IMG/VR virus record: IMGVR_UViG_3300040751_001192
Coordinates: 1 to 24,061 of that record
Reading direction: 5' to 3' (one strand)
Origin: a virus
DNA: 24,061 nucleotides
Below the pieces are notes generated by a model. The model saw only the letters and a list, made by a program, of their open reading frames with translations. It had not been told where the DNA came from and made no database searches. Below, piece by piece: positions 411 through 23,517 of this stretch (position 1 is its first letter; the number at the start of each line of letters is the position of its first letter). A program made the position numbers and the translations under genes.

Positions 411-418
411 TATTTATA
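411..418 (+). promoter_or_regulatory. Candidate late promoter motif before phoH
   Basis: TATTTATA in the context GGATATTTATATC, 36 nt before the ATG at 455. It lies between the capsid terminator and phoH. The same octamer recurs before every other apparent transcription unit here. Confidence 0.6.
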
Positions 419-454
419 TCAAAGGTTCTATAAAATAATTAAGGAAATTTAAAT

Positions 455-1114
455 ATGGCGGAAAACATATCCAAAACCCCACCAAAAGGTAATGTAAGGT
501 TTTCAATATCATTATCTGAAGAACAAAAGTTAGCAAAATCTGAAATTTTAAGACACCCATTCAATTTTATCGTAGGAAAAGCCGGAAGTGGTAAAACACT
601 ACTAGCAGTTCAGATTGCATTAGATTCATTCTTTAAAAGACAAGTTAACAAAATCGTTATAACAAGACCAACTGTATCAAATGAGGATAATGGATTCTTA
701 CCAGGCTCATTAGAAGAAAAGATGGAGCCATGGTTAGTACCAATTCGTTCAAATATGAGAAAAGTTTACAACAAACCTCAGATTTTAGAGAAAATGGAGA
801 AAGATGAGAGTATAGAATTAGTAAGTTTATCACATTTTAGAGGAAGAACTTTTGATAACTCCATAATTATAGTAGATGAGTTCCAAAACTTAACCAAACA
901 ACAACTATTAATGGTGTTAGGTAGAGTGGGAAAAGGTTCTACAATGATTCTTTGTGGTGATAAACAACAAATAGATTTAAAATTCAACAATGATTCAGCA
1001 GTACACGAAGTTCCAAAACTAAAAGGTTCAAAATGGGTATATGATATTGTATTAAAAGATAATCATAGACATGAATCTTTAGATGAAATTCTAACATTAC
1101 TAACTGATTACTAA
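455..1114 (+). CDS. phoH: PhoH-family ATPase
   Basis: A 219-residue P-loop ATPase of the PhoH family, which is common in aquatic phages. Visible motifs are Walker A GKAGSGKT (residues 41-48), ITRPTV (69-74), GFLPGSLEEKMEPWL (80-94) with NMRKVY (100-105), the HFRGRTF segment (127-133), Walker B IIIVDEFQN (137-145) and a sensor-like ILCGDKQQID near 172-181. This set and order are typical of PhoH, and the length suits the single-domain phage form. AAGGAA lies upstream of the ATG. The gene has its own candidate promoter and no co-transcribed neighbour. The family is linked to RNA metabolism (ATPase or helicase activity, sometimes fused to a nuclease) and to the host phosphate regulon, but its job in phages is unsettled. 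No nuclease domain is present. Confidence 0.92.
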   Translation: MAENISKTPPKGNVRFSISLSEEQKLAKSEILRHPFNFIVGKAGSGKTLLAVQIALDSFFKRQVNKIVITRPTVSNEDNGFLPGSLEEKMEPWLVPIRSNMRKVYNKPQILEKMEKDESIELVSLSHFRGRTFDNSIIIVDEFQNLTKQQLLMVLGRVGKGSTMILCGDKQQIDLKFNNDSAVHEVPKLKGSKWVYDIVLKDNHRHESLDEILTLLTDY

Positions 1115-1123
1115 GATTAGTTA

Positions 1124-1131
1124 TATTTATA
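1124..1131 (+). promoter_or_regulatory. Candidate late promoter motif
   Basis: TATTTATA in the context TTATATTTATATAAA, 29 nt before the GTG at 1161 and 10 nt after the phoH stop. It is another copy of the recurring octamer. Confidence 0.55.
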
Positions 1132-1160
1132 TAAAACAAAACACATATAGAGGATAAATA

Positions 1161-2396
1161 GTGGCAGATTACACAGGTTCATTTAGTGGGTCGTTTGAAG
1201 GTAGTGGTACTGGGTTAACAAACATAGATTACTACAATCTAAGTAACCTACCTACTACGATTACACCATTTCAAAGAAATTCTATATCAGCAAATAATGC
1301 TTTTAGAGATAACTTTGCCAATAACCTAAAGGATAGGTTAAATGCTGAAAGTGTAATTAGTTCATCTGCTCAATTAACAACTGAATTTGATTTAAGATAT
1401 GGAAACGAAGAAGGTGATAACTTAATTAGTGGTTCATCTCAGGTAGATTTTAATTCAATATCAAATGTACCAAACGGATTAGTAAGTTCATCAGCACAAA
1501 TTACCATAACTGAATCACAAATTAGTGATTTAACACATTTTACATCTGCAGATGTTAGAAGTGTAATGAGAGATGATTCGGTTGTAAGTTCATCGGCTCA
1601 AGTAATAGCACATTTACCTTCAGGTACTGTAAGTTCATCTAATCAAATCACCATAAGTGAATCTCAGATTTCAGATTTAACCCACTACACAGATTCAGAT
1701 GTTAAAACAAAATTGAATGCTGAAGGAGTATTAAGTGGCTCATCTCAGATTACAATTACCGAATCTCAGATTTCAGATTTAACACATACCGATGTAAGTT
1801 CTTTAAATAATTTTACATCATCTGTTGTTTTAAATTCAGTAACATCATCTATGAGTGTTGCAACCGCATCATTCATCTCAGATACATTTATTTCTGAATC
1901 AGCAGCACGTAGTGGTTTTGGACAAGGTGGTGGAACATCAGATTATGATGAATTAATAAACGTTCCATCTGGTATTATATCATCATCAGCACAAATTACA
2001 GCATTAGGATATTCAACTACTGATAATGATAATCAAACTTTATCAATTTCAGGACAAACCTTAACAATATCAGATGGTAATAGTGTAATTCTACCATCAG
2101 CAGGTGGTGGGGGTGGTTCATCAATATGGACAACTGGCTCACAAGACCCAGAAGCGTATACTCACTTAATGACATCTAATAATTTACAACTAACGGGTAG
2201 TTTTGATGTATTAGGTGATTTGACTGTAAATGGAAAATCAATATTTACACAAATATCTGCATCTGATAATGAATCAGCAGTTGTAGTTAATGGTAGGATA
2301 AAAATTTTAGAACAACAAATAGAAGGATATATCGCATCAGCTTCAATTCAAATAGGAAATACACGAGATTCAATAGATTGTGGTGGTTTTTTCTAA
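1161..2396 (+). CDS. Fibre-type structural protein with SSAQ/TESQISDL repeats
   Basis: A 411-residue Ser/Thr-rich protein starting at GTG, with AGAGGA 6 nt or so upstream. The N-terminus (GSFSGSFEGSGTGLTNID) resembles phage fibre modules. The body repeats a unit of the form [IV][SG]SSAQ-ITITESQISDLTHY-SDVKTKLNAE, with about six SSAQ/SGSSQ elements and three ITxxESQISDLTH elements. A GGGGG linker and a typical LTGSFDVLGDLTVNG fibre segment follow. The C-terminus ends SIDCGGFF. No catalytic domain, signal peptide or membrane segment is seen. It shares a 58-bp identical stretch with the gene at 4977. The likely role is a trimeric tail or baseplate fibre, inferred from composition, repeats and position; the receptor is unknown. 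Confidence 0.75.
   Translation: MADYTGSFSGSFEGSGTGLTNIDYYNLSNLPTTITPFQRNSISANNAFRDNFANNLKDRLNAESVISSSAQLTTEFDLRYGNEEGDNLISGSSQVDFNSISNVPNGLVSSSAQITITESQISDLTHFTSADVRSVMRDDSVVSSSAQVIAHLPSGTVSSSNQITISESQISDLTHYTDSDVKTKLNAEGVLSGSSQITITESQISDLTHTDVSSLNNFTSSVVLNSVTSSMSVATASFISDTFISESAARSGFGQGGGTSDYDELINVPSGIISSSAQITALGYSTTDNDNQTLSISGQTLTISDGNSVILPSAGGGGGSSIWTTGSQDPEAYTHLMTSNNLQLTGSFDVLGDLTVNGKSIFTQISASDNESAVVVNGRIKILEQQIEGYIASASIQIGNTRDSIDCGGFF
1476..1533 (+). repeat. 58-bp repeat shared with 5688-5745
   Basis: These 58 bases are identical to 5688-5745 in another fibre gene, in the same orientation and reading frame. They encode the LVSSSAQITITESQISDL unit. Sequence diverges on both sides. Confidence 0.9.
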
Positions 2397-2405
2397 TTGT
2401 TTTGA

Positions 2406-2413
2406 TATTTATG
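2406..2413 (+). promoter_or_regulatory. Candidate late promoter motif (one-base variant)
   Basis: TATTTATG in the context TTGATATTTATGAA, 33 nt before the ATG at 2447. It differs from the octamer only at the last base. Confidence 0.4.
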
Positions 2414-2446
2414 AATGTAATCTTAGTTAAGTAATAGGATAAAAGT

Positions 2447-4957
2447 ATGGCTCAAACAATAAAACATAGAAGAGGTTCGATATCTTCGGTTAGAAATATC
2501 ACATCTTTTGGTGAAGCAGAAATCGTAATTGGTAGTGGTTCGGTAGATTCAAAGGTAACAGGACCAGTAGTTTACATAGGTAAACCAGGTGGTACAACCG
2601 CCGCTAATGATTATGTTCCTGTTGGAAAAATGTATGTAGGTAGTGGTGTACCTTCAATTACACCAGCACAATATGGAACAACCTTAGATGGGCTACCATA
2701 TTATGACACAACAAACAAAACACTTTATATATTAGGTGCTAACGCAGATGGTACATCTGGCCACACCCAAATTAATATAACAACATCATCCATTGATAGT
2801 TTCGATTCTCATGTATCAGCATCAGCTGCAGCAAGTGGATTTGGTGCTGGTAGTGGTGGTGGAATTTTCGAATTAGTATCAGGTACAATATACCAATCAG
2901 ATGGTAAAAACTTACAAATAAGTGGTTCTGGTGGTAAATACGCATTAGAAGTATCTGAATCTATAAACGCATACAATATTAATGCAGGTGTTCCTACATC
3001 AAACGATTGGCAAACCAACTTAGATGGTTCTTACTTTAATAACTTTACAAAAGATACAGATGTATCTGAAATTTTAAGATTTGTAGCAGGATTACTATCA
3101 TCTTCAGCAGCAAATCCAACACCAAATACAAAAACATATAACTCAATAAGTGAAAATAAAACAAACACTTCAACATCGGCTGCACCTTCGGGTTATATAC
3201 CAAACGATAATGATATAAATGATTTAACATACTTAATTGATAAGGGATGGGCTAGTGTTGGTGGAACATTATTTCCAGGAAAAACAATTTACACAAACAC
3301 TGGGTATTCAATATCCTATACTTCAGTAGCTGGTGGTTCAACATCACAACAATCTTCTGTTGATTCACAATTATTTGGATTAGGTGCTTTAAGTAGTGGA
3401 GCAGGTGCTGAATTTAGAGTAAGTGGTTCACATTCATTTACATTCTCAGATAATTCATCTGATACTACAACTGAAACATCAGCATCATCTGAAATCATAA
3501 GTAATTCTACATTAGATACTACATCAAATGGTATTACATTAGGTAAGATACAAACTGTAAATCCTGCAGTTATCCCTGCAGCTTTCCAAGATGGTAAATT
3601 TGCATCAGTATTTAATAAAAATGTAGTAAATTGGGTTACACCATCTTCTACTTCAGTATCGGCATCTGGAAATTATACAATTTCAACAACAATTGGTATA
3701 GCAACAGGTTCACAATCAGATTATACTGATAAAACTGCGAGTGAAACTATATTTTGGGCACCTGTATCAACTATTAATTCTAATATTGGTGATAACTCAT
3801 TAGCAAGTAGTGGAGAAGTTGTAACAGCATTAACACTTACATCAGGTTCTATGTCTGGAGCACCATTTATTAATGGTGGTACTTGGAATTTAGTAGCAAC
3901 CGCAAGTGGTGTGTTTGAACCAATGTACGCATCATCAACTACTTTAGTAGATGTATCGATTGGAAGTACGAGTGGATATACAATTTCTAATACATCAGGT
4001 AAAGATACTCTATCAACAAGTGGTGGTACAATCCAAACCACTGGTATGGTAACCGACGCTGCAGGAACAACTGCAAGAAATAGTGGTGTACCACACAGAA
4101 CTGATTTGGTAGAAATTGATGCAACTTATACAATAAGTGGTACTGGTAACACATTTAATGAGAGTGGGTTTAGTGATACATCATACACATTAACAACAAC
4201 CGCTAGAGATAGAGCAGCAACACAATCAACATTAGATACTAAAACAGTAAACCTACATTCGGCTGGTACATTTGGACAACCTGCTGCGAGTGGTTCAATG
4301 GGGTATCATGGTGGTGGTAGTACAACTACTACTTTAATAGAATACTTTACTTCGGAAAGTTATAGAAGAACAATTAGTGATTCAACTACATTAGATACTG
4401 TGTGGGATGAAAGTGATAGAGTAACATTAGGTGATGGTGGTGATTTACAGGTTAAACCAGGTTATTTGGTTAATCCAGAATCTGCAAATGGATATTGGTA
4501 TCCAACGGGTGGATATAACGCAGCACATTACAAATGGTATTTAAGAGAATTTGATACTGCGGCTTCTAACAACAAAGGTACACTAACAATTGATTTAAAT
4601 CCAGATACATCAGCAGATTTAACAACATTTGATGATACAACCACAGGTAAAATTGCAGTAGGTGTTATATTTGGTTCAACCGCATCAACTGTGTTTGATG
4701 CAGTTAAAGGTACTACATCATATGGTGGTTCATTAAACTCTCAATCAGCAAATGGTTCAACTAACCCATTTAGTGATACGATTGATGTAAAGAGTGATTT
4801 TGATTCATTAACTAACTCATCTGGAACGTTAACATTAGGTTTGGCTAACGCTGCTGGACAGACTATTAACGCAACACATGATAAAGTATGGGTTTTAATT
4901 AGATATACAGGTACACCATCAAATACATTAGAAAGAATAACGGTTTCAGTATCGTAA
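2447..4957 (+). CDS. Large Ser/Thr/Gly-rich virion adhesin
   Basis: An 836-residue protein with no enzymatic motif that I recognise. The N-terminus MAQTIKHRRGSISSVRN, followed by a short segment ending in an IGKPGG-type turn, has the IKxRRGS...GEaei pattern seen at the start of many phage fibre or adhesin proteins. It parallels the start of the protein at 6158. The remainder is rich in Ser, Thr, Gly and Asn, with few charged residues, as in beta-rich shaft or receptor-binding regions. No SSAQ/TESQISDL repeat, S74 chaperone or LamG motif is visible. The C-terminal 160 residues contain more aromatics (SANGYWYPTGGYNAAHYKWY) and may form a globular head. AGGATAAA lies before the ATG. A gene 19 nt downstream has no TATTTATA of its own, so the two are probably co-transcribed. 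Confidence 0.7.
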   Translation: MAQTIKHRRGSISSVRNITSFGEAEIVIGSGSVDSKVTGPVVYIGKPGGTTAANDYVPVGKMYVGSGVPSITPAQYGTTLDGLPYYDTTNKTLYILGANADGTSGHTQINITTSSIDSFDSHVSASAAASGFGAGSGGGIFELVSGTIYQSDGKNLQISGSGGKYALEVSESINAYNINAGVPTSNDWQTNLDGSYFNNFTKDTDVSEILRFVAGLLSSSAANPTPNTKTYNSISENKTNTSTSAAPSGYIPNDNDINDLTYLIDKGWASVGGTLFPGKTIYTNTGYSISYTSVAGGSTSQQSSVDSQLFGLGALSSGAGAEFRVSGSHSFTFSDNSSDTTTETSASSEIISNSTLDTTSNGITLGKIQTVNPAVIPAAFQDGKFASVFNKNVVNWVTPSSTSVSASGNYTISTTIGIATGSQSDYTDKTASETIFWAPVSTINSNIGDNSLASSGEVVTALTLTSGSMSGAPFINGGTWNLVATASGVFEPMYASSTTLVDVSIGSTSGYTISNTSGKDTLSTSGGTIQTTGMVTDAAGTTARNSGVPHRTDLVEIDATYTISGTGNTFNESGFSDTSYTLTTTARDRAATQSTLDTKTVNLHSAGTFGQPAASGSMGYHGGGSTTTTLIEYFTSESYRRTISDSTTLDTVWDESDRVTLGDGGDLQVKPGYLVNPESANGYWYPTGGYNAAHYKWYLREFDTAASNNKGTLTIDLNPDTSADLTTFDDTTTGKIAVGVIFGSTASTVFDAVKGTTSYGGSLNSQSANGSTNPFSDTIDVKSDFDSLTNSSGTLTLGLANAAGQTINATHDKVWVLIRYTGTPSNTLERITVSVS

Positions 4958-4976
4958 TATATAAAGAGGAACAAAA

Positions 4977-6143: not shown

Positions 6144-6157
6144 AATAGGGGATAGGC

Positions 6158-6550
6158 GTGGCCGAAAACAGAATAAAATTAAAAAGGAGCTCGGTATCTG
6201 CTAATGTACCCAATGTTGGTGATTTAACATTAGGTGAATTAGCTGTAAATACTTATGATGGTAAGTTATTCTTTAAAAAAGATAATGGAGTTGATTCTAT
6301 TGAATCAATCGTTACCACCAATGCTCAAATCACAGGTTCTGTTGAATTAACCGGGGCATTAACATCATCTCTTTCTTTGATTGAAAACAATACACCATCA
6401 ACTGATATGTTTTTGGTAAAAATCAATGGAAATGATAAAGTAAAAGTAAATTCAGAAGGAACATTCGTAATAAAAGAATCACTAACACTACCAACAGGCG
6501 AAAAAGGTGCGATGGTGGTTAGTGGAAGTGGATTTTTTATATATTTATAA
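6158..6550 (+). CDS. Small fibre-type protein
   Basis: A 130-residue protein starting at GTG, preceded by AGGGGATAGG and 14 nt after the previous stop. The start MAENRIKLKRSSVSANVP, then GDLTLGELAVNTYDGKLFFKKDN, is the widespread phage fibre N-terminal pattern (IxxRR...P...L..GElAvN...gklf.kd) and parallels the protein at 2447. The middle resembles fibre shaft sequence (QITGSVELTGALTSSLSLI). The end SGSGFFIYL resembles the GGEVFIYA end of the next gene. It could be a short fibre or an adaptor. It shares a transcription unit with 2447 and 4977, as no TATTTATA lies in front. Confidence 0.65.
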   Translation: MAENRIKLKRSSVSANVPNVGDLTLGELAVNTYDGKLFFKKDNGVDSIESIVTTNAQITGSVELTGALTSSLSLIENNTPSTDMFLVKINGNDKVKVNSEGTFVIKESLTLPTGEKGAMVVSGSGFFIYL

Positions 6551-6568
6551 CAAAGTAAAAAAAACAAA

Positions 6569-6576
6569 TATTTATT
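6569..6576 (+). promoter_or_regulatory. Candidate late promoter motif (variant) before 6612
   Basis: TATTTATT, 35 nt before the ATG at 6612. A perfect TATTTATA also lies at 6542-6549, overlapping the last codons of the previous gene, so either could serve. Confidence 0.4.
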
Positions 6577-6611
6577 TAACACAAACATAAAGCTTAAAAA
6601 GAGGAAACAAA

Positions 6612-8150
6612 ATGGCAGAATGGAAAAAAGTAATTGTATCGGGGTCATCACCTGAATTCGGTGCAATAACAGTAGATGGAACGGTAACTGCTAACGCATT
6701 TAGTGGTGATGGTTCAGCCCTTACGGGCGTAGCTGCGGGAAGTATCGATATTGATAACTTTAGCGCAAGTACAACATTAGCACAAGGAGACCACTTCTTA
6801 TTTTCAGATGGTGGTACTGAAAGTAAAATCACATTTAGTAATATCGAAGATGAAATCTTTGGTAACGTAAGTGGTGATGCAACTATCGCAGCAGGTGGTG
6901 CATTAACAATCGCTAATACAGCGGTAACTAACGATATGTTAGCGGGTTCAATTGCAAATGGAAAATTATCAAACTCAGCAATCACAATCGCTGGAAATTC
7001 AACTTCATTAGGTGGAAGTATCACTGCGGCAACTATCTTAGATGGTACTGGTGTACTTTCAGGTTCGGCTCAAATCGAATCAGAAATCAATGATTTGGCA
7101 GATTCACGAATTGGAGCAGCAAGTGTAACTGATTTATCTGATGTAACAAACGTAGGTTCTGGTGCAATCATTACTTCAGCTGAAAGAACTAAATTAGGTG
7201 GTATTGCAACTGGTGCAGAAGTAAACGTTGATACTAATATTACTGTATCAGAAGGTGCTAATACAGTTGAGATTCAATCTTCTACTGGTACTAACGATTC
7301 AATCGCAGCAGCTACTACATCAAAAGCTGGTGTTATGACTGCAACCGATAAAACTAAATTAGATGGTATTGAAGCTTTAGCAGATGTAACTGATGCTACA
7401 AATGTAACAAGTGGATTGGTAGCAGCAACTGCAATTTCTTCTGGTAATAAAACTACAATACAAACAAACTTAGGAGTAGATGCAGCAGGAACAGATAATA
7501 GTACATTAGCAGGTTTAACTGCAACCGCTATCGGTAAATCTATTGTTACAGGTTCTAACGCATCAGCTATTAGAAGTACAATTGGTGTAGATGCAGCAGG
7601 AACAGATAACTCAACTGATGTAACTTTAGCTGGTGTTCCAAACTATATTACAATTAGTGGACAGACTATTACAAGACATCAAATTGATATTTCAGATGAT
7701 ACTAACTTGGCTGTTGGTACTGGTGTAACTCTTACTGGAGATACTCTTTCAATCGGACAAGCAGTTGGTACATCAGATGATGTACAATTTGCAAATATCA
7801 CTGCAACTGGTGATTTAATGGTACAAGGTACTTTAACTTCATTACAAACTACTAACTTAAACATTGAGGACCAATTTATCTTATTGAACTCAGGTTCGGA
7901 AGATGCACAATCATCAGGTATTATATTTGGTGGTTCAACTGGAACACAAGGTGCTGGTGCAGCATTCTTCTACGATATGGATGCTGATAGACCTGCTTGG
8001 ACTAGTAATGCACTTGCATGGAATGCTACCGCTGCAACTGAAACAGCATTTATTCCTAGAGTATTTGATGTAGATGGTTCATCTCACACTCCTGTTGCTG
8101 AAGCTGGTTCTATCCAAATATCTGGTGGTGAAGTATTTATTTACGCATAG
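6612..8150 (+). CDS. Tail fibre protein with WKKVIVSGS N-terminus
   Basis: A 512-residue fibre with AAGAGGAAAC upstream. It opens MAEWKKVIVSGSSPEFGAIT, nearly the same start as the giant fibre at 8501, which suggests a shared docking peptide. The body carries repeats known from phage fibres: ITSAERTKLGGIATGAEVN and KAGVMTATDKTKLDGIEAL, and two copies of GVDAAGTDNST. A DLMVQGTLTSLQTTNLNIED segment with ILLNSG and SGIIFGG follows; a parallel segment occurs in the giant fibre. One SGSAQIESEINDL echoes the SSAQ repeats of earlier genes. The C-terminus SGGEVFIYA has no visible chaperone domain. The fibre assignment is firm from these repeats; the receptor is unknown. Confidence 0.8.
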   Translation: MAEWKKVIVSGSSPEFGAITVDGTVTANAFSGDGSALTGVAAGSIDIDNFSASTTLAQGDHFLFSDGGTESKITFSNIEDEIFGNVSGDATIAAGGALTIANTAVTNDMLAGSIANGKLSNSAITIAGNSTSLGGSITAATILDGTGVLSGSAQIESEINDLADSRIGAASVTDLSDVTNVGSGAIITSAERTKLGGIATGAEVNVDTNITVSEGANTVEIQSSTGTNDSIAAATTSKAGVMTATDKTKLDGIEALADVTDATNVTSGLVAATAISSGNKTTIQTNLGVDAAGTDNSTLAGLTATAIGKSIVTGSNASAIRSTIGVDAAGTDNSTDVTLAGVPNYITISGQTITRHQIDISDDTNLAVGTGVTLTGDTLSIGQAVGTSDDVQFANITATGDLMVQGTLTSLQTTNLNIEDQFILLNSGSEDAQSSGIIFGGSTGTQGAGAAFFYDMDADRPAWTSNALAWNATAATETAFIPRVFDVDGSSHTPVAEAGSIQISGGEVFIYA

Positions 8151-8187
8151 TAATTATTAAATAATGAAATGGTTAAAAAGGTTATAT

Positions 8188-8367: not shown

Positions 8368-8370
8368 AAG

Positions 8371-8400
8371 AAACCCCAACAGAAATGTTGGGGTTTTTTA
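8371..8400 (+). terminator. Intrinsic terminator with GAAA loop
   Basis: AAACCCCAACA (8371-8381) pairs perfectly with TGTTGGGGTTT (8386-8396) around a GAAA tetraloop, followed by more T. It ends the unit containing 6612 and 8188. The core arm is identical to that of the terminator at 22304. Confidence 0.93.
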
Positions 8401-8420: not shown

Positions 8421-8428
8421 TATTTATA
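8421..8428 (+). promoter_or_regulatory. Candidate late promoter motif before the giant fibre gene
   Basis: TATTTATA in the context CCATATTTATATTAA, 20 nt after a terminator. The ATG at 8501 is 72 nt further on, a longer leader than in the other units, and a structured element lies in between. Confidence 0.6.
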
Positions 8429-8443
8429 TTAAATTAGCTTGTT

Positions 8444-8481
8444 GTTGGCCCGAAAGGGAAGTGGGCTTTTTAGTAACCAAC
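8444..8481 (+). promoter_or_regulatory. Structured leader, possible attenuator
   Basis: GCCC (8448-8451) can pair with GGGC (8463-8466), which runs directly into TTTTT. CCC GAAA GGG (8449-8458) is a competing hairpin, and GTTGG (8444-8448) can pair with CCAAC (8477-8481). These mutually exclusive folds lie between the promoter-like motif and the start of the giant fibre gene. They could attenuate or time its expression. The stems are short, so this is tentative. Confidence 0.35.
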
Positions 8482-8500
8482 CACAATAAAGGATTAGGAT

Positions 8501-16314: not shown

Positions 16315-16322
16315 TATTTATA
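16315..16322 (+). promoter_or_regulatory. Candidate late promoter motif before gp13
   Basis: TATTTATA in the context CCATATTTATATACAAA, 22 nt before the ATG at 16345. The context is nearly the same as at 8421 and 18857. Confidence 0.6.
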
Positions 16323-16344: not shown

Positions 16345-17499
16345 ATGGCAGTTAATATTCCAATATGGCCTGGTAGCTCATCCTTCACAGCAGGTGATAC
16401 ACCATTCGGATACTATGATTCAGATTCAGAGTTCGTTACTGATGTTGATAATATAGCATCGTGGTGTGCCAAACGTTTAGGATATCCAATTGTGGATATT
16501 GAACTACAAGATATCAATTTCTATACTTGTGTTGAAGAAGCAGTTACTGAATACTCTACTCAAGTAAACCAATTCAACATTAGAGAAAACCTTTTAAACT
16601 TAAAAGGAAGTTCAACAGGTTCAAACTTATCACAAACACAACTAAATGCAAACTTAGGTGGATTGATTTCATTATCTAAAGATTATGGAACTGAAGCAGG
16701 TAGTGGTGGTAGGGTAACTTACTACACAGGTTCATTTGAAGCAAACGCATCTCAACAAGTTTATGATTTAACTGATGCGAGTTTGGTATCATTGGAGAGT
16801 GGAACTCCTGGTGTTGATAAGATTGAGATTAAAAAGATGTTACACAACGCACCACCTGCGATGGTAAGATACTTTGACCCATTTATTGGTACTGGTTTAG
16901 GTTCTCAACAAATGATGGATACTTTCGGATGGGGTAACTACTCACCAGGTGTTTCATTTATGATGCAACCACTTTATGATGACCTTTTAAGATTACAAGC
17001 AATCGAATTTAACGATATGGTTCGTAAATCTCAATATGGATTTGATATTCAAAACAATAGAATTAGATTATTTCCAGTACCTGAGCACGCATACACAGTT
17101 CATTTCCATTATATTTTAGAATCTGATAGAAGTAACTCAGTAGTATCTAACTCAGTAGTATCTGATTACTCAAACGCACCATTCGATAGAATTACATATA
17201 CTCACATCAATCACGTTGGTAAGAGATGGATTCAGAAATACGCATTAGCATTAGCAAAAGAAATGTTAGGTGCAGTTAGAGCTAAGTTTAGTTCAGTACC
17301 AATTCCAAATTCAGAAATTACATTAGATGGTGCAGATTTAAGAAGTGAAGCAGCATCAGAAAAGGAAATCTTAATATCAGAATTAAGAGAAAACTTAGAA
17401 GCTACTTCTCGTAAGGCATTATTACAGGCACAGCAAGAAGAATCCGAAGCAATGGAACAAACATTGAATAGAGTTCCTCGTGCTATTTATATAGGATAA
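16345..17499 (+). CDS. 13: Neck protein, gp13-like
   Basis: A 384-residue protein with a strong AAGGAG 6 nt before ATG. The N-terminal segment TPFGYYDSDSEFVTDVDNIA, then ASWCAKRLGYPIVDIEL and FYTCVEEAVTEYSTQVNQF (about residues 22-77), is the hallmark of the gp13 neck protein of T4-like marine phages. T4 gp13 is shorter (309). In T4, gp13 with gp14 completes the head-tail connector after DNA packaging. gp14 follows 3 nt later. Residues from the tandem NSVVSNSVVS come from a 15-bp direct duplication. The C-terminus is a charged helix (KALLQAQQEESEAMEQ). Confidence 0.9.
   Translation: MAVNIPIWPGSSSFTAGDTPFGYYDSDSEFVTDVDNIASWCAKRLGYPIVDIELQDINFYTCVEEAVTEYSTQVNQFNIRENLLNLKGSSTGSNLSQTQLNANLGGLISLSKDYGTEAGSGGRVTYYTGSFEANASQQVYDLTDASLVSLESGTPGVDKIEIKKMLHNAPPAMVRYFDPFIGTGLGSQQMMDTFGWGNYSPGVSFMMQPLYDDLLRLQAIEFNDMVRKSQYGFDIQNNRIRLFPVPEHAYTVHFHYILESDRSNSVVSNSVVSDYSNAPFDRITYTHINHVGKRWIQKYALALAKEMLGAVRAKFSSVPIPNSEITLDGADLRSEAASEKEILISELRENLEATSRKALLQAQQEESEAMEQTLNRVPRAIYIG
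17134..17163 (+). repeat. Two 15-bp tandem copies inside gp13
   Basis: AACTCAGTAGTATCT occurs twice with no gap, encoding NSVVS twice in frame. It lies in a Ser-rich loop between the conserved segments FHYILESDRS and FDRITYTHIN. Confidence 0.95.
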
Positions 17500-17502
17500 A
17501 GA

Positions 17503-18030
17503 ATGGCGTTATTTGGTGGAGAAAGAGATGCAGCTTTGTTTAGAAAAATAAACAAAGAATTGATTACGGATATTATTGATACCGAAATCTACTACTATAA
17601 GCTTATTTTAGATGATTCTAAAAGAAATCTTTATGGTGAGGGTAAAGATAAGGTATTTTATAATCCTGTAAAGATTCCTACATTGGTTGATAGAACAAAT
17701 GCAGAACAAATCTTTGATGAATTTGGTTCATCTTACACCAGAAATGTTAACTTCTATTTCCTAAGAGATATTTTAGTAGAAAAGAATGTGTTTCCAGAAG
17801 TTGGTGATGTGATTGTATGGAATGATGAACAACATATTGTAGATGTAACATTTACAAACCAATTCTTTGCAGGAAAGAATCCTGATACTTGGGATGGTGG
17901 TGATTCACAAGGTTATAACATATCTATTATATGTGAAACTCATGTAACGAGAAAAACACAACTAAAATTAGAAGATGATTTCCGATTTGGGAACGATACT
18001 ACAAATAACGATTTACCAGTAGGTGTATAA
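17503..18030 (+). CDS. 14: Neck protein, gp14-like
   Basis: A 175-residue protein 3 nt after gp13, with AGGATAAAG before the ATG. Recognisable features of gp14 from T4-like phages are the start MALFGGERDAALFRKINKEL, then YKLILDDSKRNLYGE, VFYNPVKIPTLVDR, FLRDILVEKNVFPEVGDVI and FFAGKNPDTWDGGDSQG. It is shorter than T4 gp14 (256). In T4 this protein forms the neck together with gp13, joining head and tail. The stop overlaps the next start by one base (TAATG), so gp13, gp14 and the gp15-like gene form one operon. Confidence 0.88.
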   Translation: MALFGGERDAALFRKINKELITDIIDTEIYYYKLILDDSKRNLYGEGKDKVFYNPVKIPTLVDRTNAEQIFDEFGSSYTRNVNFYFLRDILVEKNVFPEVGDVIVWNDEQHIVDVTFTNQFFAGKNPDTWDGGDSQGYNISIICETHVTRKTQLKLEDDFRFGNDTTNNDLPVGV

Positions 18031-18836
18031 TGGCAATAAAGTATAGACAAAATAGAGATGAAAAGGTTGATTTAGGTAGAACCCAAAGTTCTTTTTCAGA
18101 TGACCCTAAATTAAATAAAGCCAAACAAGTATCGAGAAGAAATGATGATGTTAAGAATTTTCAAGTCGGAATATACGATATTGATTTGGCATTTAAAGAT
18201 TTCTTAGAGAAAGATGTTAAACCTACTATCGAAGAGAGTGGAAAATACATTCCAGTACCCGTATTATACGCATCTCCAGAGAATTGGGCATCTGCACAAA
18301 AAGATGGATATTTAAGAGATGCTAATGGTAAAGTTTTAACTCCATTGATTTCATTTAAAAGAAATTCATTAGATATTAACACCGAATATTCAAAATTAAA
18401 GGTGATGACTGATGAAGATACTTCAAGAACATTTGTAAGAAAATACACACCTCAGAATAGATATGACAAATTTTCACAATTAGTGGATAGTAGAGATTAT
18501 TATGAATATCATATGGTAGATACACCTGATTATGTAAACATTCAGTATGATGTTATTATGTGGTGTGATTATATGGAAGATTTAAATAAGTTAGTAGAAC
18601 AGGTAATCTATTTTCAAGGTGGCGCATTTGGTGAAAGATATAAATTCCAAATTAAAGGAGAATCTTACTCATTCGAAACTACAAATGCAGTTGGTGAAGA
18701 AAGATTGGTACGAAGTAATGTAACACTTACTGCAAAGGCATACATTATACCTGAAGATAGAGGTAAACGTACAATGAATACTCAGAAAGCATTTGGTACA
18801 ACCAAAATAGTTTGGAATGTAGGATTAGATACCTAA
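18030..18836 (+). CDS. 15: Tail completion / sheath stabiliser protein, gp15-like
   Basis: A 268-residue protein, close to T4 gp15 (272). It contains YIPVPVLYASPENW (residues 73-86), comparable with the PITYAS segment of gp15, and a later DYVNIQYDVIMWCDYMEDLN followed by LVEQVIYF, comparable with the gp15 segment that ends in a VEQILPWF-like stretch. In T4, gp15 caps the tail tube and sheath and provides the docking face for the neck. The position right after gp13 and gp14 matches the T4 order 13-14-15. The gene starts inside the stop of gp14, with AGGTG just upstream. The assignment rests on two motifs, length and gene order. Confidence 0.75.
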   Translation: MAIKYRQNRDEKVDLGRTQSSFSDDPKLNKAKQVSRRNDDVKNFQVGIYDIDLAFKDFLEKDVKPTIEESGKYIPVPVLYASPENWASAQKDGYLRDANGKVLTPLISFKRNSLDINTEYSKLKVMTDEDTSRTFVRKYTPQNRYDKFSQLVDSRDYYEYHMVDTPDYVNIQYDVIMWCDYMEDLNKLVEQVIYFQGGAFGERYKFQIKGESYSFETTNAVGEERLVRSNVTLTAKAYIIPEDRGKRTMNTQKAFGTTKIVWNVGLDT

Positions 18837-18856
18837 TGTTTCTAAATAAATTTTCA

Positions 18857-18864
18857 TATTTATA
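18857..18864 (+). promoter_or_regulatory. Candidate late promoter motif
   Basis: TATTTATA in the context TCATATTTATATAAAC, 34 nt before the ATG at 18899, in the gap after the gp15-like gene. Confidence 0.58.
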
Positions 18865-18898
18865 TAAACACAAAGTTTAACTTAATAAAAAAAATGTT

Positions 18899-19198
18899 AT
18901 GGCAGAAGTAAAACAAGTCAAAGAAACAGAAGTGATTAAATTTACAGAAGAAGAAATCGCAAAGATTGGAAAGTTCAGACAAGAATTTTCAGAAGTTACC
19001 GCTAGGTTGGGTGAAGTTGAAATTGAACTTACTTTAATCGAAACTCAAAAAACAAATATTGAGAACTTCAAAGCTCAATTAAAACAAAAGTATTTGGAGA
19101 TGAGAGAATCTGAAATTAAATTAGCAGGTGAACTTAAAGAAAAGTATGGTGAGGGTGAGTTCGATATTAATACAGGTGTATTTACACCCAACGTATAA
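18899..19198 (+). CDS. Small coiled-coil protein of unknown function
   Basis: A 99-residue, highly charged, Glu/Lys-rich protein with an unbroken helical stretch (FTEEEIAKIGKFRQEFSEVT through KYLEMRESEIKLAGELKEKY) likely to form a coiled coil. The C-terminus changes to DINTGVFTPNV. No known family is recognised. It lacks a good ribosome-binding sequence (an A-rich stretch precedes the ATG), and an out-of-frame ATG five bases upstream opens a five-codon frame across the start. It has its own TATTTATA and lies between the gp15-like gene and the sheath gene, where T4 carries the terminase genes 16 and 17. It could be a tail assembly factor or scaffold. The ORF is well supported, the function is not. 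Confidence 0.75.
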   Translation: MAEVKQVKETEVIKFTEEEIAKIGKFRQEFSEVTARLGEVEIELTLIETQKTNIENFKAQLKQKYLEMRESEIKLAGELKEKYGEGEFDINTGVFTPNV

Positions 19199-19224
19199 AT
19201 ATAATCGTTTCTGATTTTTTGGAG

Positions 19225-19232
19225 TATTTATA
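19225..19232 (+). promoter_or_regulatory. Candidate late promoter motif before the sheath gene
   Basis: TATTTATA in the context GGAGTATTTATAGATATA, 37 nt before the ATG at 19270. Confidence 0.55.
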
Positions 19233-19269
19233 GATATACAAAACCAAAGAAATTAAATAGGAGAATAAA

Positions 19270-21669
19270 ATGGCAGAAAGAATAGTAAGTCCTGGAGTAT
19301 TTACAAGAGAAAAGGACTTGTCATTTCTACCTCAAGGGATTGGTGAAATTGGAGCAGCGTTAATTGGGTCAACCGTTAAGGGACCTGCGTTCGTTCCAAC
19401 TCAAGTCGAATCTTTTCAAGAGTTTCAGCAGATATTTGGTGGTTTAACGGAAGATTCGTACCTACCATATACTGCTCAATCTTATTTGGAAGATGCTGGA
19501 ACTGCAACAATCGTTAGGGTATTAGGACAAGATGGATACACTCTGGAAAATCCAGTTGGACTAATCATCTCATCATCAGAAGGTACAAAAGTAGCAGCAG
19601 TATTACACCCAACTACTGGTATCGTTTCTGACACCGATGTATTTAAAGCAAGTTCAGTAGCAGACCAATTCGGCTCATCTGATGTATCAGCATCTTTATT
19701 TACATTAACAATTACAGGTTCAGAGGCCGTTGGAACTAATTTTTCAGCATCTTTAAACCCAACAAATGGTAACTACTTTACCAAAACTTTTGGATTCTCT
19801 CCAAGAGGTTCGCAAGACGCGTTTGTACAATCTAACTTTAAAACATTCCAATCAGCATCGTTCGCCACTGGTGAAGAAGTTGTTGTAACTTTAGATGTTG
19901 CAAAAGATATTGATTACTCAAAAGCATATACTGAGGCATCAACACCATACATTACATCACAGAAAGTGGGTGGTGCTACTACTAACTTATTTAAGTTCCA
20001 TACTTTATCACATGGTAACCCAACTAACTACGAATTTAAAATCGGTATTCAGGATGTTAAACCAGCTGGAACTGTAGCAGGTTCTGAGTATGGTTCATTT
20101 ACTGTAATCGTAAGAAGAGTAGACCAAGATAAAGTAAATGGTTCACCATTCGTAGGCGTGGTTGATTCAGATATCAGACCTAACTTAGTTGAAACTTTCC
20201 AGGGTGTTAACTTAGACCCTAATTCACCTAACTTTATCGCTAGAGTAATTGGTGATAAGTGGATTACTGTTGATTCAAATGGTAAATTATCAACAAATGG
20301 TGATTACCCTAACAATTCGGCAAACATTAGAGTTGAAGTAACTCAGGCAGTTAAAGATGAGGCAATTGACCCTTCATTAGTACCTTTCGGATTCGCAGCA
20401 TTGCAAAATCCTTATGGAACTGCATTTACGTTACCTAATCCAACTTATGTATTAGACCAAACAATCAATAACTCATATAACTCTAAGAAGTTCTATGGAT
20501 TTGATTTTGATTTTGTTACAACTGATAACTTAAACTATTTAGCACCAACTCCTGATTCATCTACTGCAACTGCAGGTACTGCATTCTACTTAGGTGATTA
20601 CAATCAGAATACTGGAGCTAACTACCCATCTTCAACCTCACCACACACTGGTTCAATTGATTTAAATGATAATAATACGGCATTAGCATCTCGTAAATTC
20701 TTAGTTCCTTTCCAAAGTGGATTTGATGGATACAAACCAAATAGAATTGTTTATACTGCAGGTGATATCATCGCAGGTAATACACAAGGATATGATTTAT
20801 CTTCAAATACTGCAACTGGTACATTAGCATTTAGAAAAGCTATCAACTCAGTATCTAATCCTGATGAATTTGATATCAATATGTTAGTAATTCCAGGTGT
20901 TATCCACAGATTACACTCTGCAGTAACAACATTTGCTAAAGATATGTGTGAAGATAGACAAGATACATTCTTTGTAATGGATGCATCTGCATGGGCTGAT
21001 TCAATCTCAACTGCAACTAACGCAGTTCAATCATTTGATTCAAATTATGTAGCATCTTACTACCCTTGGGTTAAGATTCTTAACACAGATAAGAACAAAC
21101 CAGTATGGGTGCCGCCATCGGCTGTACTTCCTGGCGTTATCGCATTTAACGACCAAGTTGCCGCTGAGTGGTTCGCTCCTGCAGGATTGAATAGAGGTGG
21201 ATTAACTTCAGTAATTGAAGCTAAGACAAGATTGACAAGAGCAGAAAGAGATGAACTCTACGAAGGTAGATTGAATCCTATCGCTACATTCCCTGGACAG
21301 GGTGTAACTGTATTTGGACAGAAAACACTACAAGCTAAACCATCAGCATTGGATAGAATCAATGTAAGAAGGTTGTTGATTGCAGTGAAGAAGTTCATCG
21401 CATCTTCTACTCGTTACTTAGTGTTCGAAAACAACACAGCAGCAACGAGAAACAGATTCTTATCAATCGTTAATCCTTATTTGGAATCAATCCAACAAAG
21501 ACAAGGGTTATACGCATTTAGAGTGATTATGGATGAAACTAATAACACTCCAGATGTAATTGATAGAAACATTATGGTAGGAGAAATCTTCTTACAACCA
21601 GCTAAGACTGCTGAGTTTATTGTTCTAGATTTCAATGTATTACCAACTGGGGCAGCATTTCCAGAATAA
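19270..21669 (+). CDS. 18: Tail sheath protein, gp18-like
   Basis: A 799-residue contractile sheath subunit, longer than T4 gp18 (659). The N-terminus MAERIVSPGVFTREKDLS, then GEIGAALIGSTVKGPAFVPT and SYLEDAGTATIVRVLG, is the standard sheath start. The C-terminal conserved domain includes DEFDINMLVIPGVIH, YYPWVKILN, VWVPPSAVLPGVIAFND, PAGLNRG, RLTRAERDELYEGRLNPIA, GVTVFGQKTL, INVRRLLIAVKKFI and, at the end, RNIMVGEIFLQPAKTAEFIV. The middle part (about residues 120-480) is the variable, exposed insertion region and accounts for the extra length. AGGAG precedes the ATG. A terminator follows. It contracts around the gp19 tube encoded next. Confidence 0.97.
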   Translation: MAERIVSPGVFTREKDLSFLPQGIGEIGAALIGSTVKGPAFVPTQVESFQEFQQIFGGLTEDSYLPYTAQSYLEDAGTATIVRVLGQDGYTLENPVGLIISSSEGTKVAAVLHPTTGIVSDTDVFKASSVADQFGSSDVSASLFTLTITGSEAVGTNFSASLNPTNGNYFTKTFGFSPRGSQDAFVQSNFKTFQSASFATGEEVVVTLDVAKDIDYSKAYTEASTPYITSQKVGGATTNLFKFHTLSHGNPTNYEFKIGIQDVKPAGTVAGSEYGSFTVIVRRVDQDKVNGSPFVGVVDSDIRPNLVETFQGVNLDPNSPNFIARVIGDKWITVDSNGKLSTNGDYPNNSANIRVEVTQAVKDEAIDPSLVPFGFAALQNPYGTAFTLPNPTYVLDQTINNSYNSKKFYGFDFDFVTTDNLNYLAPTPDSSTATAGTAFYLGDYNQNTGANYPSSTSPHTGSIDLNDNNTALASRKFLVPFQSGFDGYKPNRIVYTAGDIIAGNTQGYDLSSNTATGTLAFRKAINSVSNPDEFDINMLVIPGVIHRLHSAVTTFAKDMCEDRQDTFFVMDASAWADSISTATNAVQSFDSNYVASYYPWVKILNTDKNKPVWVPPSAVLPGVIAFNDQVAAEWFAPAGLNRGGLTSVIEAKTRLTRAERDELYEGRLNPIATFPGQGVTVFGQKTLQAKPSALDRINVRRLLIAVKKFIASSTRYLVFENNTAATRNRFLSIVNPYLESIQQRQGLYAFRVIMDETNNTPDVIDRNIMVGEIFLQPAKTAEFIVLDFNVLPTGAAFPE

Positions 21670-21683
21670 ATAAATTAGATTAA

Positions 21684-21718
21684 GTTCCCCATTTCGGTGG
21701 GGAACACAATCTTTTTTT
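21684..21718 (+). terminator. Intrinsic terminator after the sheath gene
   Basis: GTTCCCCA (21684-21691) pairs with TGGGGAAC (21698-21705). A T-G pair closes a TTCG tetraloop. A seven-T run follows after a 6-nt gap (21712-21718), so the T tract is not immediately adjacent. The candidate promoter of the tube gene begins 10 nt later. Confidence 0.8.
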
Positions 21719-21728
21719 AAAAGAACAA

Positions 21729-21736
21729 TATTTATA
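21729..21736 (+). promoter_or_regulatory. Candidate late promoter motif before the tube gene
   Basis: TATTTATA in the context CAATATTTATATTAAAG, 28 nt before the ATG at 21765 and directly after the sheath terminator. Confidence 0.6.
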
Positions 21737-21764
21737 TTAAAGAAAACACAACGGAGTAACATAA

Positions 21765-22253
21765 ATGGCACAATTATTAGACCCAACTGAAGTAATGTTC
21801 ACATCATTCGAACCGAAGATGTCGAACCGCTTTATTATGTATGTAGAAGGAATTCCTGCATATCTAATCAAAGCAGCCAATAGACCTGAAATATCAAATG
21901 GTAAAGTAACTATCGACCATATCAACGTAAGAAGATATGTAAAAGGTAGAAGTGAGTGGAGTAGTTTAACAATTTCATTGTACGACCCAGTAGTACCATC
22001 TGCAGCACAAGCTACAATGGAGTGGGTACGTTTACACCACGAATCAGTAACTGGTAGAGACGGTTACTCTGATTTCTACAAAAAAGATATCACTTTTAAC
22101 AGTTTGGGTCCTGTTGGTGATAAAGTAGAAGAGTGGACACTTAAAGGAGCATTTATCGAAACTGCTAAATTCTCAGATATGGATTATACTGGTGAAGATT
22201 TAGCAACTGTAGATTTAACACTTGCTTACGATTACGCAATACTACAATACTAA
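21765..22253 (+). CDS. 19: Tail tube protein, gp19-like
   Basis: A 162-residue protein, almost the length of T4 gp19 (163). Typical segments are PKMSNRFIMYVEGIPAYLIK, AANRPEISNGKVTIDHINV, KGRSEWSSLTISLYDPVVPS, EWVRLHHESVTGRDGYSDFY and VEEWTLKGAFIETAKFSDMD, ending in TVDLTLAYDYAILQY. Hexameric rings of this protein form the inner tube inside the gp18 sheath. CGGAG lies upstream of the ATG. It has its own promoter-like motif and terminator, which fits the need for many copies of this protein. Confidence 0.95.
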   Translation: MAQLLDPTEVMFTSFEPKMSNRFIMYVEGIPAYLIKAANRPEISNGKVTIDHINVRRYVKGRSEWSSLTISLYDPVVPSAAQATMEWVRLHHESVTGRDGYSDFYKKDITFNSLGPVGDKVEEWTLKGAFIETAKFSDMDYTGEDLATVDLTLAYDYAILQY

Positions 22254-22271
22254 TTTCGGATTGTTGTAATA

Positions 22272-22303
22272 CAAATTGAAAATTCAGCAAATTGAAAATT
22301 CAG
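22272..22303 (+). repeat. Two 16-bp tandem copies before a terminator
   Basis: CAAATTGAAAATTCAG occurs twice without a gap (22272-22287 and 22288-22303), perfectly conserved and non-coding, directly before the terminator of the tube gene. Confidence 0.95.
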
Positions 22304-22335
22304 AACCCCAACATTTTTGTTGGGGTTTTTGTTTT
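22304..22335 (+). terminator. Intrinsic terminator after the tube gene
   Basis: AACCCCAACA (22304-22313) pairs perfectly with TGTTGGGGTT (22318-22327) around TTTT, followed by a T-rich tail. The left arm is identical to 8372-8381 of the terminator after the gene at 8188. Confidence 0.93.
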
Positions 22336-22340
22336 AATTA

Positions 22341-22360
22341 TATTTATTTTCATATTTATT
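22341..22360 (+). promoter_or_regulatory. Candidate late promoter motifs, two variants
   Basis: TATTTATT at 22341-22348 and again at 22353-22360, right after the tube terminator. The second is 44 nt before the ATG at 22405. Both differ from the octamer at the last base. Confidence 0.4.
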
Positions 22361-22404
22361 ACTAGGTTAACCAAAATTTAAGTTTTAAAACAAAAGAGAA
22401 CGTT

Positions 22405-23283
22405 ATGAGCGAAGAATTGCAAGATGATTACAAATCAAACATCTCAAATCAGGAGATGGTGGAACTTGCCAAACAACAATTTGAACAGAAGCAAGTTTCA
22501 GATTACAAATTCCCAACTGAAATCGTAGAGTTACCATCTAAGGGGTTGATTTACCCAAAGGATAACTCACTTTCAAGTGGTAGAGTTGAAATGAAGTATA
22601 TGACTGCTAAAGAGGAAGATATCCTTACTACACAATCATATATTAAAGATGGTTCGGTGTTAGACCGATTATTCCAATCACTTATTATTTCAAATGGTGA
22701 AGGATTACCAGTAAAATATGTAGATATCACCGCAGGTGATAAAAACGCAATTATGATTGCAGCACGTATTTTGGGATATGGTAAGGATTATGAGGTGGAG
22801 ATTACAGACCCATTTACTAACACAAAACAAAAAGAAGTTATTGATTTAACTCAATTTGAAAATAAAGATTACGATGGTAGTAAACAAACAGAACCACATA
22901 AAAATGAGTTCGAATTCACACTACCTCGTTCAACTCGTAAGATTACGTTTCAAGCATTAACTGAAAGTAAAGAACGTAAGATTAAACATCAGTTAGAAGA
23001 TTTGAAAAAAGCAGGTCGTAAAATGAAAGATTTAACATCTAAAGAATTGACGACTCGTTTAAAAAATACAATTACATCAGTAGATGGGGAATACGATACT
23101 AAATATATTAGTAATTTCGTAGATAACGAATTGTTTGCAGTAGATTCTAAGTCTCTCAGAGCATACATTAATGAAGTTATACCGGATATTGATTTAACAT
23201 ACGAATTTATTTCTGAAGAGACTGGGGAAAGGAGAGAGATGCTACTGCCTATGGATGTCGGGTTTTTTTGGCCTAAGTCTTAA
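22405..23283 (+). CDS. 26: T4_baseplate-family (gp26-like) protein, probable tail assembly chaperone
   Basis: A 292-residue protein with AAGAGAAC before the ATG. After an acidic, helical leader it has FPTEIVELPSKGLIYP (residues 36-51), VEMKYMTAKEEDIL (61-74), LDRLFQSLII and GDKNAIMIAARILGYGKDYE, which I recognise from the gp26/T4_baseplate family of T4-like phages. The C-terminus ends MDVGFFWPKS. The position directly after the tube gene is where other long-tailed phages encode their tail assembly chaperone, usually with a frameshifted extension. Here the end of the gene overlaps a second ORF in the +1 frame at GGGTTTTTTTGG (23260-23271), which supports that reading. The alternative is a baseplate hub protein, as T4 gp26 has been described. 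Confidence 0.75.
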   Translation: MSEELQDDYKSNISNQEMVELAKQQFEQKQVSDYKFPTEIVELPSKGLIYPKDNSLSSGRVEMKYMTAKEEDILTTQSYIKDGSVLDRLFQSLIISNGEGLPVKYVDITAGDKNAIMIAARILGYGKDYEVEITDPFTNTKQKEVIDLTQFENKDYDGSKQTEPHKNEFEFTLPRSTRKITFQALTESKERKIKHQLEDLKKAGRKMKDLTSKELTTRLKNTITSVDGEYDTKYISNFVDNELFAVDSKSLRAYINEVIPDIDLTYEFISEETGERREMLLPMDVGFFWPKS

Positions 23284-23476
23284 TTATAGGAAGTTATTAC
23301 ACTCTCAAATATTCGACCTAATCTATCATGGAAATGGTGGGTTTACCTTTTCAGATGTTTACAATATGCCACTTTGGGCTCGAAAATTTTATATTACTAA
23401 GATTGTAGAATTTAAAGAAAATGAAAAACAGGCGTATGAGAAACAAGCGAAAAAAACAAAAGGTATAAGAAGATAA
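23198..23476 (+). CDS. Probable frameshift extension of the gp26-like protein
   Basis: This frame is open from 23198 (after TAA at 23195) to TAA at 23474-23476, overlapping the previous gene by 86 nt in the +1 frame. The only ATG in the overlap is at 23255, giving 73 residues, and the GGAGAGAG there is 17 nt away, too far to serve it well. A shift at TTTTTTT (23263-23269) would instead join FF to GLSLNYRKLLHSQ. A +1 slip would give a 356-residue fusion and a -2 slip one of 357. The extension has NGGFTFSDVYNMPLWARKFY followed by a Lys/Glu-rich helix, like the short helical C-terminal parts of tail assembly chaperones that contact the tape measure. Independent translation from 23255 remains possible. 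A terminator follows immediately. Confidence 0.7.
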   Translation, partial: HTNLFLKRLGKGERCYCLWMSGFFGLSLNYRKLLHSQIFDLIYHGNGGFTFSDVYNMPLWARKFYITKIVEFKENEKQAYEKQAKKTKGIRR

Positions 23477-23510
23477 TAAGAAACCCAACGTAATTGTTGG
23501 GTTTTCTTAT
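23476..23510 (+). terminator. Intrinsic terminator
   Basis: Arms 23476-23489 and 23496-23510 pair (core AAACCCAAC with GTTGGGTTT) with one bulged T and a six-base loop. It begins on the last base of the stop codon. The right arm ends on the first base of the next TATTTATA. Confidence 0.82.
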
Positions 23511-23517
23511 ATTTATA
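23510..23517 (+). promoter_or_regulatory. Candidate late promoter motif
   Basis: TATTTATA in the context CTTATATTTATACATA, 23 nt before the ATG at 23541, abutting the terminator. Confidence 0.55.

Follow-up and report, generated by a model that had tools for sequence, protein, structure and literature searches.

The 24,061-bp virus fragment of IMG/VR record IMGVR_UViG_3300040751_001192, hereafter the window, carries the virion genes of a distant T4-like phage, and the short element TATTTAT recurs on the coding strand upstream of them. Sequence comparisons give good support to this element being a late promoter whose sequence type is new, a variant of the T4 late kind that is likely, though not proven, to be read by a newly found family of proteins with a predicted sigma fold. 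In the proposed mechanism, [A/G]TATTTAT[A/T] would act as the -10-type element of late promoters in these phages. Late in infection, the core RNA polymerase of the host would carry, instead of its own sigma, a phage-encoded protein with a sigma domain 2 and would open the DNA at the element, with transcripts beginning a few bases downstream, before operons of virion genes, several of them lying behind intrinsic terminators. A probability of roughly 0.7 is assigned to this explanation as a whole. Three points are inferred here: the candidate protein is the reader, the motif serves in the late phase, and a sliding clamp takes part.

The exact octamer TATTTATA occurs 12 times on both strands of the window, 10 of them on the plus strand, against a mean of 4.89 and a maximum of 10 in 100 dinucleotide shuffles, none of which reached 12. 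When one mismatch was allowed, 80 matches were found in the window against 84.9 expected, without excess, so that single-base variants are uninformative alone. The sequence-only reading had counted such variants, and this can be upheld at 2406 and 22353, where conservation backs them (TATTTAT in 3/3 distinct relatives for gene 2447 and 14/15 for gene 22405). The exact octamer was also dropped as the unit, because in 9/9 records its backward word ATATTTAT equals or exceeds it, either on the strand rich in genes or by total count. The core is better described as [A/G]TATTTAT, with the preceding base being A in 74 and G in 12 of 86 upstreams chosen for holding the core. In the upstream non-coding DNA of the window (1,024 bp), TATTTAT is the most over-represented 7-mer, with 12 copies against 1.2 expected from an order-2 Markov model within intergenic DNA; one copy lies antisense and four in coding sequence. 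These counts agree with the earlier proposal that the motif marks transcription units, and the suggested comparison of non-coding with coding DNA comes out in its favour.

The same excess has been found in related genomes, namely G001-G005, Mel-JY01 (PP395634.1) and Flavobacterium phage immuto (MW353176.1), with RM378 (NC_004735.1) also compared and T4 serving as control. Upstream copies of TATTTAT number 34 against 6.6 expected in G001 (7 antisense), 18 against 3.1 in G002 (7), 22 against 4.8 in G003 (2), 15 against 2.6 in G005 (2) and 37 against 7.4 in immuto (13). Among upstream 7-mers it holds first place in three genomes (G001, G003 and G005) and second place in two (G002 and immuto), falling to fifth in G004 and tenth in Mel-JY01. 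In RM378 its place is taken by TATTTAA, with 33 copies against 3.1 expected. Applied to T4, the method recovered TATAAATA (19 against 2.1, 7 antisense), alongside further words, GTTTACA and GGTACTAT among them. Free expectation-maximisation fitting of motifs to whole genomes mixed late and host-type motifs and was set aside. A further upstream word family was seen in immuto around TTTAGGTATC (TTTAGGT 18 against 1.7 expected, 6 antisense), and is perhaps an early or middle promoter.

A simple gene caller gave 21 genes in the window. Identified among the window's genes are the end of a major head protein gene and genes for PhoH-like, fibre and baseplate, head-tail adaptor, tail sheath, tail tube and baseplate hub proteins. 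The putative promoter copies, all on the plus strand, are listed below with the distance from octamer end to start codon and the number of relatives carrying TATTTAT within 80 nt of the start; distinct relatives are those with upstreams differing by more than 15%.

411 to 418, plus strand: promoter core TATTTATA, 36 nt before the phoH-like gene 455-1114; 3/4 distinct relatives.
1124 to 1131, plus strand: promoter core TATTTATA, 29 nt before gene 1161-2396; 4/4 relatives.
2406 to 2413, plus strand: promoter core TATTTATG, 33 nt before gene 2447-4957; relatives as given above, with an antisense copy too in 2/3.
6542 to 6549, plus strand: TATTTATA, the first copy before gene 6612-8150, sharing bases with the stop codon of gene 6158-6550.
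6569 to 6576, plus strand: second copy, TATTTATT, from the one-mismatch scan, 35 nt before gene 6612-8150.
8421 to 8428, plus strand: promoter core TATTTATA, followed by a 72-nt leader and the 1848-aa fibre/baseplate gene 8501-14047.
16315 to 16322, plus strand: promoter core TATTTATA, 22 nt before the head-tail adaptor gene 16345-17499; 14/14 relatives.
17484 to 17491, plus strand: TATTTATA inside the end of gene 16345-17499; only 2/10 relatives.
18857 to 18864, plus strand: promoter core TATTTATA, 34 nt before gene 18899-19198; 23/24 relatives.
19225 to 19232, plus strand: promoter core TATTTATA, 37 nt before the tail sheath gene 19270-21669; 14/15 distinct relatives.
21729 to 21736, plus strand: promoter core TATTTATA, 28 nt before the tail tube gene 21765-22253; 15/15 relatives.
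22353 to 22360, plus strand: promoter core TATTTATT, 44 nt before the baseplate hub-like gene 22405-23283, with a second copy at 22341-22348; relatives as given above.
23510 to 23517, plus strand: promoter core TATTTATA, 23 nt before gene 23541-23774; 8/8 relatives.

Five terminator-like hairpins with T-runs, each followed by a copy as had been claimed, lie on the same strand.

351 to 370, plus strand: hairpin with a T-run, about 40 nt before the 411 promoter, recognised by eye and absent from the scan list.
8371 to 8396, plus strand: hairpin about 24 nt before the 8421 promoter, for which the scan gives a minus-strand reading only.
21684 to 21705, plus strand: hairpin from the scan, about 23 nt before the 21729 promoter.
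22302 to 22329, plus strand: hairpin from the scan, about 11 nt before the 22341/22353 promoter.
23480 to 23505, plus strand: hairpin from the scan, about 4 nt before the 23510 promoter.

The claimed spacing of 22-45 nt thus holds for ten of the eleven genes, the remaining one being 8501, at 72 nt. Its relatives carry TATTTAT in 0/7 cases within 80 nt and in 6/7 within 130 nt, while for gene 6612 the figures are 4/5 and 5/5. Before six genes (16345, 18899, 19270, 21765, 22405 and 23541), TATTTAT is kept in 88/91 distinct upstreams. The motif had been said to be absent before genes packed behind another gene, and before five of these it is found in 0/34 relatives (4977 0/3, 14047 0/11, 14755 0/6, 15524 0/3 and 18030 0/11), with 6158 departing from the claim, the core being present in 1/6. 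At 8164 it occurs in 1/3. The copy before 17503 does lie inside the preceding gene, as described, and to judge from its conservation it is probably incidental and not a promoter. Antisense TATTTAT occurs 0-2 times per gene among the relatives, except at 19270 (12/15), where ATAAATA stands upstream and shares bases with the stop codon of the preceding gene. The median distance from core to start varies by gene from 23 to 45 nt, and is about 70 for 8501. For the sheath gene, at least 580 relatives were detected in viral contigs and the 80 best (38 distinct upstreams) examined; GTATTTAT was found in 79/80 loci and the full octamer in 49/80, with one locus (L083) having TACTTAT.

The motif lies on the coding strand upstream of virion genes, and marks this gene class in 6/7 related genomes, with p <0.005 in each of the six. 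Among genes with an upstream gap, TATTTAT precedes virion homologues and other genes, respectively, in 12/15 and 16/77 cases in G001, 11/14 and 4/41 in G002, 15/19 and 6/22 in G003, 5/6 and 2/16 in G004, 8/12 and 12/76 in Mel-JY01, and 14/24 and 14/87 in immuto; G005 is the exception. Only virion-type genes are present in the window itself, where the motif stands before 11/13. In gaps between tandem genes, sense and antisense copies number 12:1 in the window, 31:3, 17:5, 22:2, 8:1 and 14:2 in G001-G005, 30:13 in Mel-JY01 and 35:12 in immuto, compared with 12:0 for TATAAATA in T4. TATTTAA in RM378 is likewise intergenic and oriented as a promoter would be, with 15:3 in tandem gaps, 8 and 8 in divergent regions, and 0 and 1 in convergent ones; its last base is unlike that of TATTTAT.

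The T4 late promoter is TATAAATA, located at -13 to -6 and read by gp55 together with gp45 and gp33, as described in the available part of the source (PMC1524935). The window octamer had been presented as the exact reverse complement of this core, which is true and misleading, since on the coding strand the two agree at 6/8 letters, with the two central A's replaced by T's, and an inversion is therefore unnecessary. In our reading of the letters, the reverse-complement relation would be a by-product of the near-palindrome. A reversed T4 promoter acting on the minus strand was rejected because the motif follows gene direction. The element may be viewed as a T4 late element in which TT has replaced AA at -10/-9 of the T4 numbering, differing at 2/8 letters from a T4-type octamer. 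Like the T4 promoter, it would be a short -10-type element before virion-gene operons; no strong -35 block was found, a weak T-rich patch (described below) apart, and relatives encode a candidate reader with a predicted sigma domain 2 and, in three cases, a gp45-like clamp. A precedent is found in Aeh1, a T4-like phage whose late element (CTAAATA) and gp55 have diverged together, according to the accessible text of the same source (PMC1524935). In Aeh1, as far as that text goes, the 5' side of the element changed and gp55 is still named as such, whereas here the centre has changed and the reader is not recognisable by sequence alone.

Across 86 distinct upstreams from nine genes, all selected for holding the core, no strong shared second block was found on its 5' side. 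At the sheath gene, ATCGTTT (19204 to 19210, plus strand) precedes the core and is present in 77/80 loci; its CGTTT portion occurs in 80/80, standing 14 nt away in 79/79 loci having the core. Among nine late genes, CGTTT is present throughout only at the sheath gene (12/12), with 3/13 for 22405 and none for the other seven, and a -33-type contact or an activator site at the sheath promoter is possible. A plus-strand TATAAATA at 19194-19201 adjoins ATCGTTT, over the stop codon of the preceding gene. Elsewhere a weak T-rich patch is seen, with T frequency at -15 from the core being 0.73 in the window, 0.64, 0.73, 0.71, 0.71 and 0.57 in G001-G005 and 0.55 in Mel-JY01, compared with 0.43 in immuto, 0.31 in RM378, 0.31 in T4 and a background of 0.31-0.35. 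This patch, about 15 nt upstream and lacking in the T4 control, may represent an upstream contact, the rows being few and related.

The candidate reader is an unannotated protein of about 235 residues found in relatives of the window phage. In immuto it is immuto35A_152, and its relatives by phmmer are located in G003 (78769-79491, minus strand, 3e-44), G001 (132670-133386, 2e-42) and Mel-JY01 (158764-159534, 1e-38), with a remote relative in RM378 (17032-17826, plus strand, hmmsearch 2.8e-8 with composition bias). Scans of viral contigs returned 253, at least 523 and at least 600 confirmed relatives. An AlphaFold2 model built from 55 sequences (pLDDT 78, pTM 0.45) predicts two helical parts. 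The first resembles sigma domain 2, as far as a predicted model can tell, with the VIA-align rows being RNA-polymerase or sigma entries by title and residues ~6-113 sitting on domain 2. Fits range from 2.3 to 3.0 A over 90-102 residues (2.3 A over 95 for 4x8k_A and 2.8 A over 93 for 4lup_C, with 5h6x_B and 9e86_F also among the rows). The C-terminal part, a helical domain of about 100 residues which gp55 does not have, was predicted with pLDDT 84 when modelled alone and appears helix-turn-helix-like by eye; no clear structural match was found for it, and no sigma4 entry leads the list. No clamp-binding motif was visible by eye at the C-terminus in six new-family rows of the joint alignment, for which no dedicated test was made, a further apparent difference from gp55. 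A small open reading frame that overlaps the sigma gene was weighed as a possible gp33 and dismissed on visual inspection. Gp45-like clamps (phrog_223) were detected in G001, G002 and G004, with E 1e-13 to 1e-15.

A joint alignment of 34 gp55 and 58 new-family sequences allows the residues that touch the T4 promoter to be compared. In gp55, Y97 stacks on A-12, N13 and H95 touch A-9, and T99 binds A-8, according to the available portion of PMC7892883. The Y97 position is Y in 58/58 new-family sequences and the F86 position F or Y in 58/58, while the H95 position has become F or Y in 58/58 and the N13 position T in 56/58. The motif keeps A-12 and changes A-9, matching the kept Y97 and the changed H95/N13 equivalents, an agreement which is only suggestive because the joint alignment is not significant by sequence.

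Several observations weigh against this interpretation. The candidate sigma gene lies outside the 24-kb window, its presence being deduced from a relative whose sheath protein shares 93% identity. A search of 10 records with phrog_234 (gp55) gave one weak match outside T4, immuto35A_152 (E 0.008, one genome), and the same search also matched in 7/14 control genomes. Against the whole library immuto35A_152 reaches only E 0.5 with phrog_234, and 3/55 family members touch it (best E 0.026), with families of unknown function scoring better. Profile comparison with gp55 by hhalign failed (probability 0.1% and 0.6%). Sequence searches with the candidate retrieved only annexins from PDB (E 0.38) and no sigma match from Pfam, and Sigma70_r2 and Sigma70_r4, searched over 6 genomes, matched RM378 only, at other genes; phrog_12791 matched T4 only among 10 records. 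Structurally, a VIA-align Z of about 9 is middling for a helical model by the tool's own note, and the best Foldseek E is 0.039; gp55 is absent among the 50 matches listed by Foldseek and from the VIA-align rows, an absence that proves nothing. The contact comparison is built on an alignment not significant in itself, and at other positions gp55 residues are not kept, with R57 replaced by T in 57/58 and the T99 position being G in 29, T in 18, Q in 9 and S in 2 (T/S 20/58). The phrog_223 clamp was not found in 6/9 non-T4 records, including immuto, Mel-JY01 and RM378, some of the records being fragments. RM378 has a second, conventional sigma-70 domain-2 protein, matched at 128638-128847 on the minus strand, and the reader is therefore ambiguous in that phage. 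On the side of the motif, G005 lacks the gene-class contrast (10/13 and 4/5, p 0.77), Mel-JY01 has nine words ranked above TATTTAT and a weaker strand bias (30 versus 13), and the exact octamer is not commoner than its backward word. The sequence-only reading had proposed a diverged late promoter with gp55-type specificity and a search for gp55 homologues. The first part is well supported by the virion genes, orientation, conservation, lack of a strong -35 block and a sigma-fold candidate in relatives; the similarity of this candidate to gp55 is not significant, and its true homology with gp55 remains unproven.

A more far-reaching version is put forward only tentatively, being rather doubtful. 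In the far-T4 phages of Bacteroidota, the centre of the late promoter would have been recoded by a changed base pocket of the sigma, and the C-terminal domain of the sigma, if DNA-binding, could use a contact near -30 (CGTTT at the sheath gene, the weak T-rich patch elsewhere), promoter code and sigma having co-evolved in one phage superfamily.

A rival reading keeps the late promoter but assigns it to the host's own primary sigma (sigma-ABfr type) in unmodified form, which would recognise it as a weak variant of the -7 box, perhaps helped by an activator from the phage; the sigma-fold protein would then have another function. The Flavobacterium primary-sigma consensus is TTTG/TANNTTTG, as given in the available parts of PMC6847099 and PMC9723704, and TATTTATA resembles the -7 box TAnnTTTG, sharing with it a TA that has T's behind it. 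Sheath CGTTT, 14 nt before the core, and the T-rich patch elsewhere are what an upstream contact would give. Nonetheless, the Bacteroidota promoter requires a 3' G and a -33 element and is rare before virion genes, with TAnnTTTG found before 0/13 in the window and 0-2 per relative, and the late motif lacks both G-5 and a common upstream TTG (2/11 in the window). This promoter is present in some of the same phage genomes, most clearly in Mel-JY01, where TAnnTTTG with upstream TTG (19 sites) fits the consensus and forms a separate class, mostly ahead of genes outside the virion class (23/76, with 12/76 in the antisense control; virion genes 1/12). The split is weak in G001 (14/77 versus 2/15), so that no clear preference of TAnnTTTG for non-virion genes emerges there, and in immuto the counts are 1/87 and 1/24. 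Within the available text of PMC9723704, no sigma motif described for F. psychrophilum matches TATTTAT, logos not having been compared. Taken together, reading by the host sigma is considered unlikely. Mel-JY01 (L088) is labelled as Microcystis-infecting, yet it has Bacteroidota-type promoters at many non-virion genes and ranks alongside Flavobacterium phages among the top matches to the window's sheath, which makes its host label questionable.

The position of the motif, 22-72 nt before start codons and often in or near the leader, would also suit a role in RNA or translation, as an A/U-rich leader element or a processing site. This is highly improbable, considering that the five packed genes lacking the motif also need translation, that the distance to the start codon varies between genes, that several copies directly follow terminators, and that in RM378 divergent regions carry it on both strands and convergent regions almost never. 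Some large phages carry their own polymerases, and the motif could be the promoter of such an enzyme. The beta-prime domain PF00623 of multi-subunit polymerases was found in 0/6 genomes, its controls having matched 14/14; single-subunit PF00940 gave no match either, a negative that is weak because none of its controls matched. For a promoter of the T7 type, 8 bp would be short, and a phage polymerase is very improbable indeed. Finally, a composition artefact, with TATTTAT arising by chance in A/T-rich intergenic DNA, is hardly credible despite a GC content of 32-38% and one-mismatch matches without excess, given the excess over the order-2 Markov expectation, the single antisense copy against 12 and the conservation in up to 24 distinct relatives.

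Two further features have been observed in leaders of the window. In the leader that separates the 8421 promoter from the gene of the giant fibre, a conserved element at 8441-8484 (GGCCC-GAAA-GGG-AAGTGGGC...ACCAACC) recurs with changes in 9 relatives, of which some are near-identical, and is probably a structured RNA; it has no Rfam match at the gathering threshold, and the Rfam scan at this threshold and the tRNA scan over the window were empty. A Shine-Dalgarno-like GGAG (19260-19263) stands just before the sheath start codon in 80/80 loci; Flavobacterium mRNAs are reported, in the available part of PMC6847099, to be without such sequences.

By tblastn with the sheath protein, the nearest named records are Mel-JY01 (58.8%), LR756508 (43.5%) and RM378 (26.7%), with immuto at 50.9% covering 48% of the query. 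The phages carrying the motif form a large and mostly uncultured T4-like group of Bacteroidota, and a previously unrecognised phage sigma is the probable reader; no description of the motif or of the sigma candidate was found among the openly licensed PMC papers listed by the searches. For these very common and almost unstudied aquatic phages, with at least 600 stretches holding relatives of the candidate, the finding provides a late-promoter code together with a named candidate reader, and makes operons and late genes predictable directly from metagenomic contigs. The natural pair formed by TATAAATA with gp55 and TATTTATA with the new sigma bears on how a sigma pocket shifts its specificity, and the finding may also supply a second promoter system for Bacteroidota.

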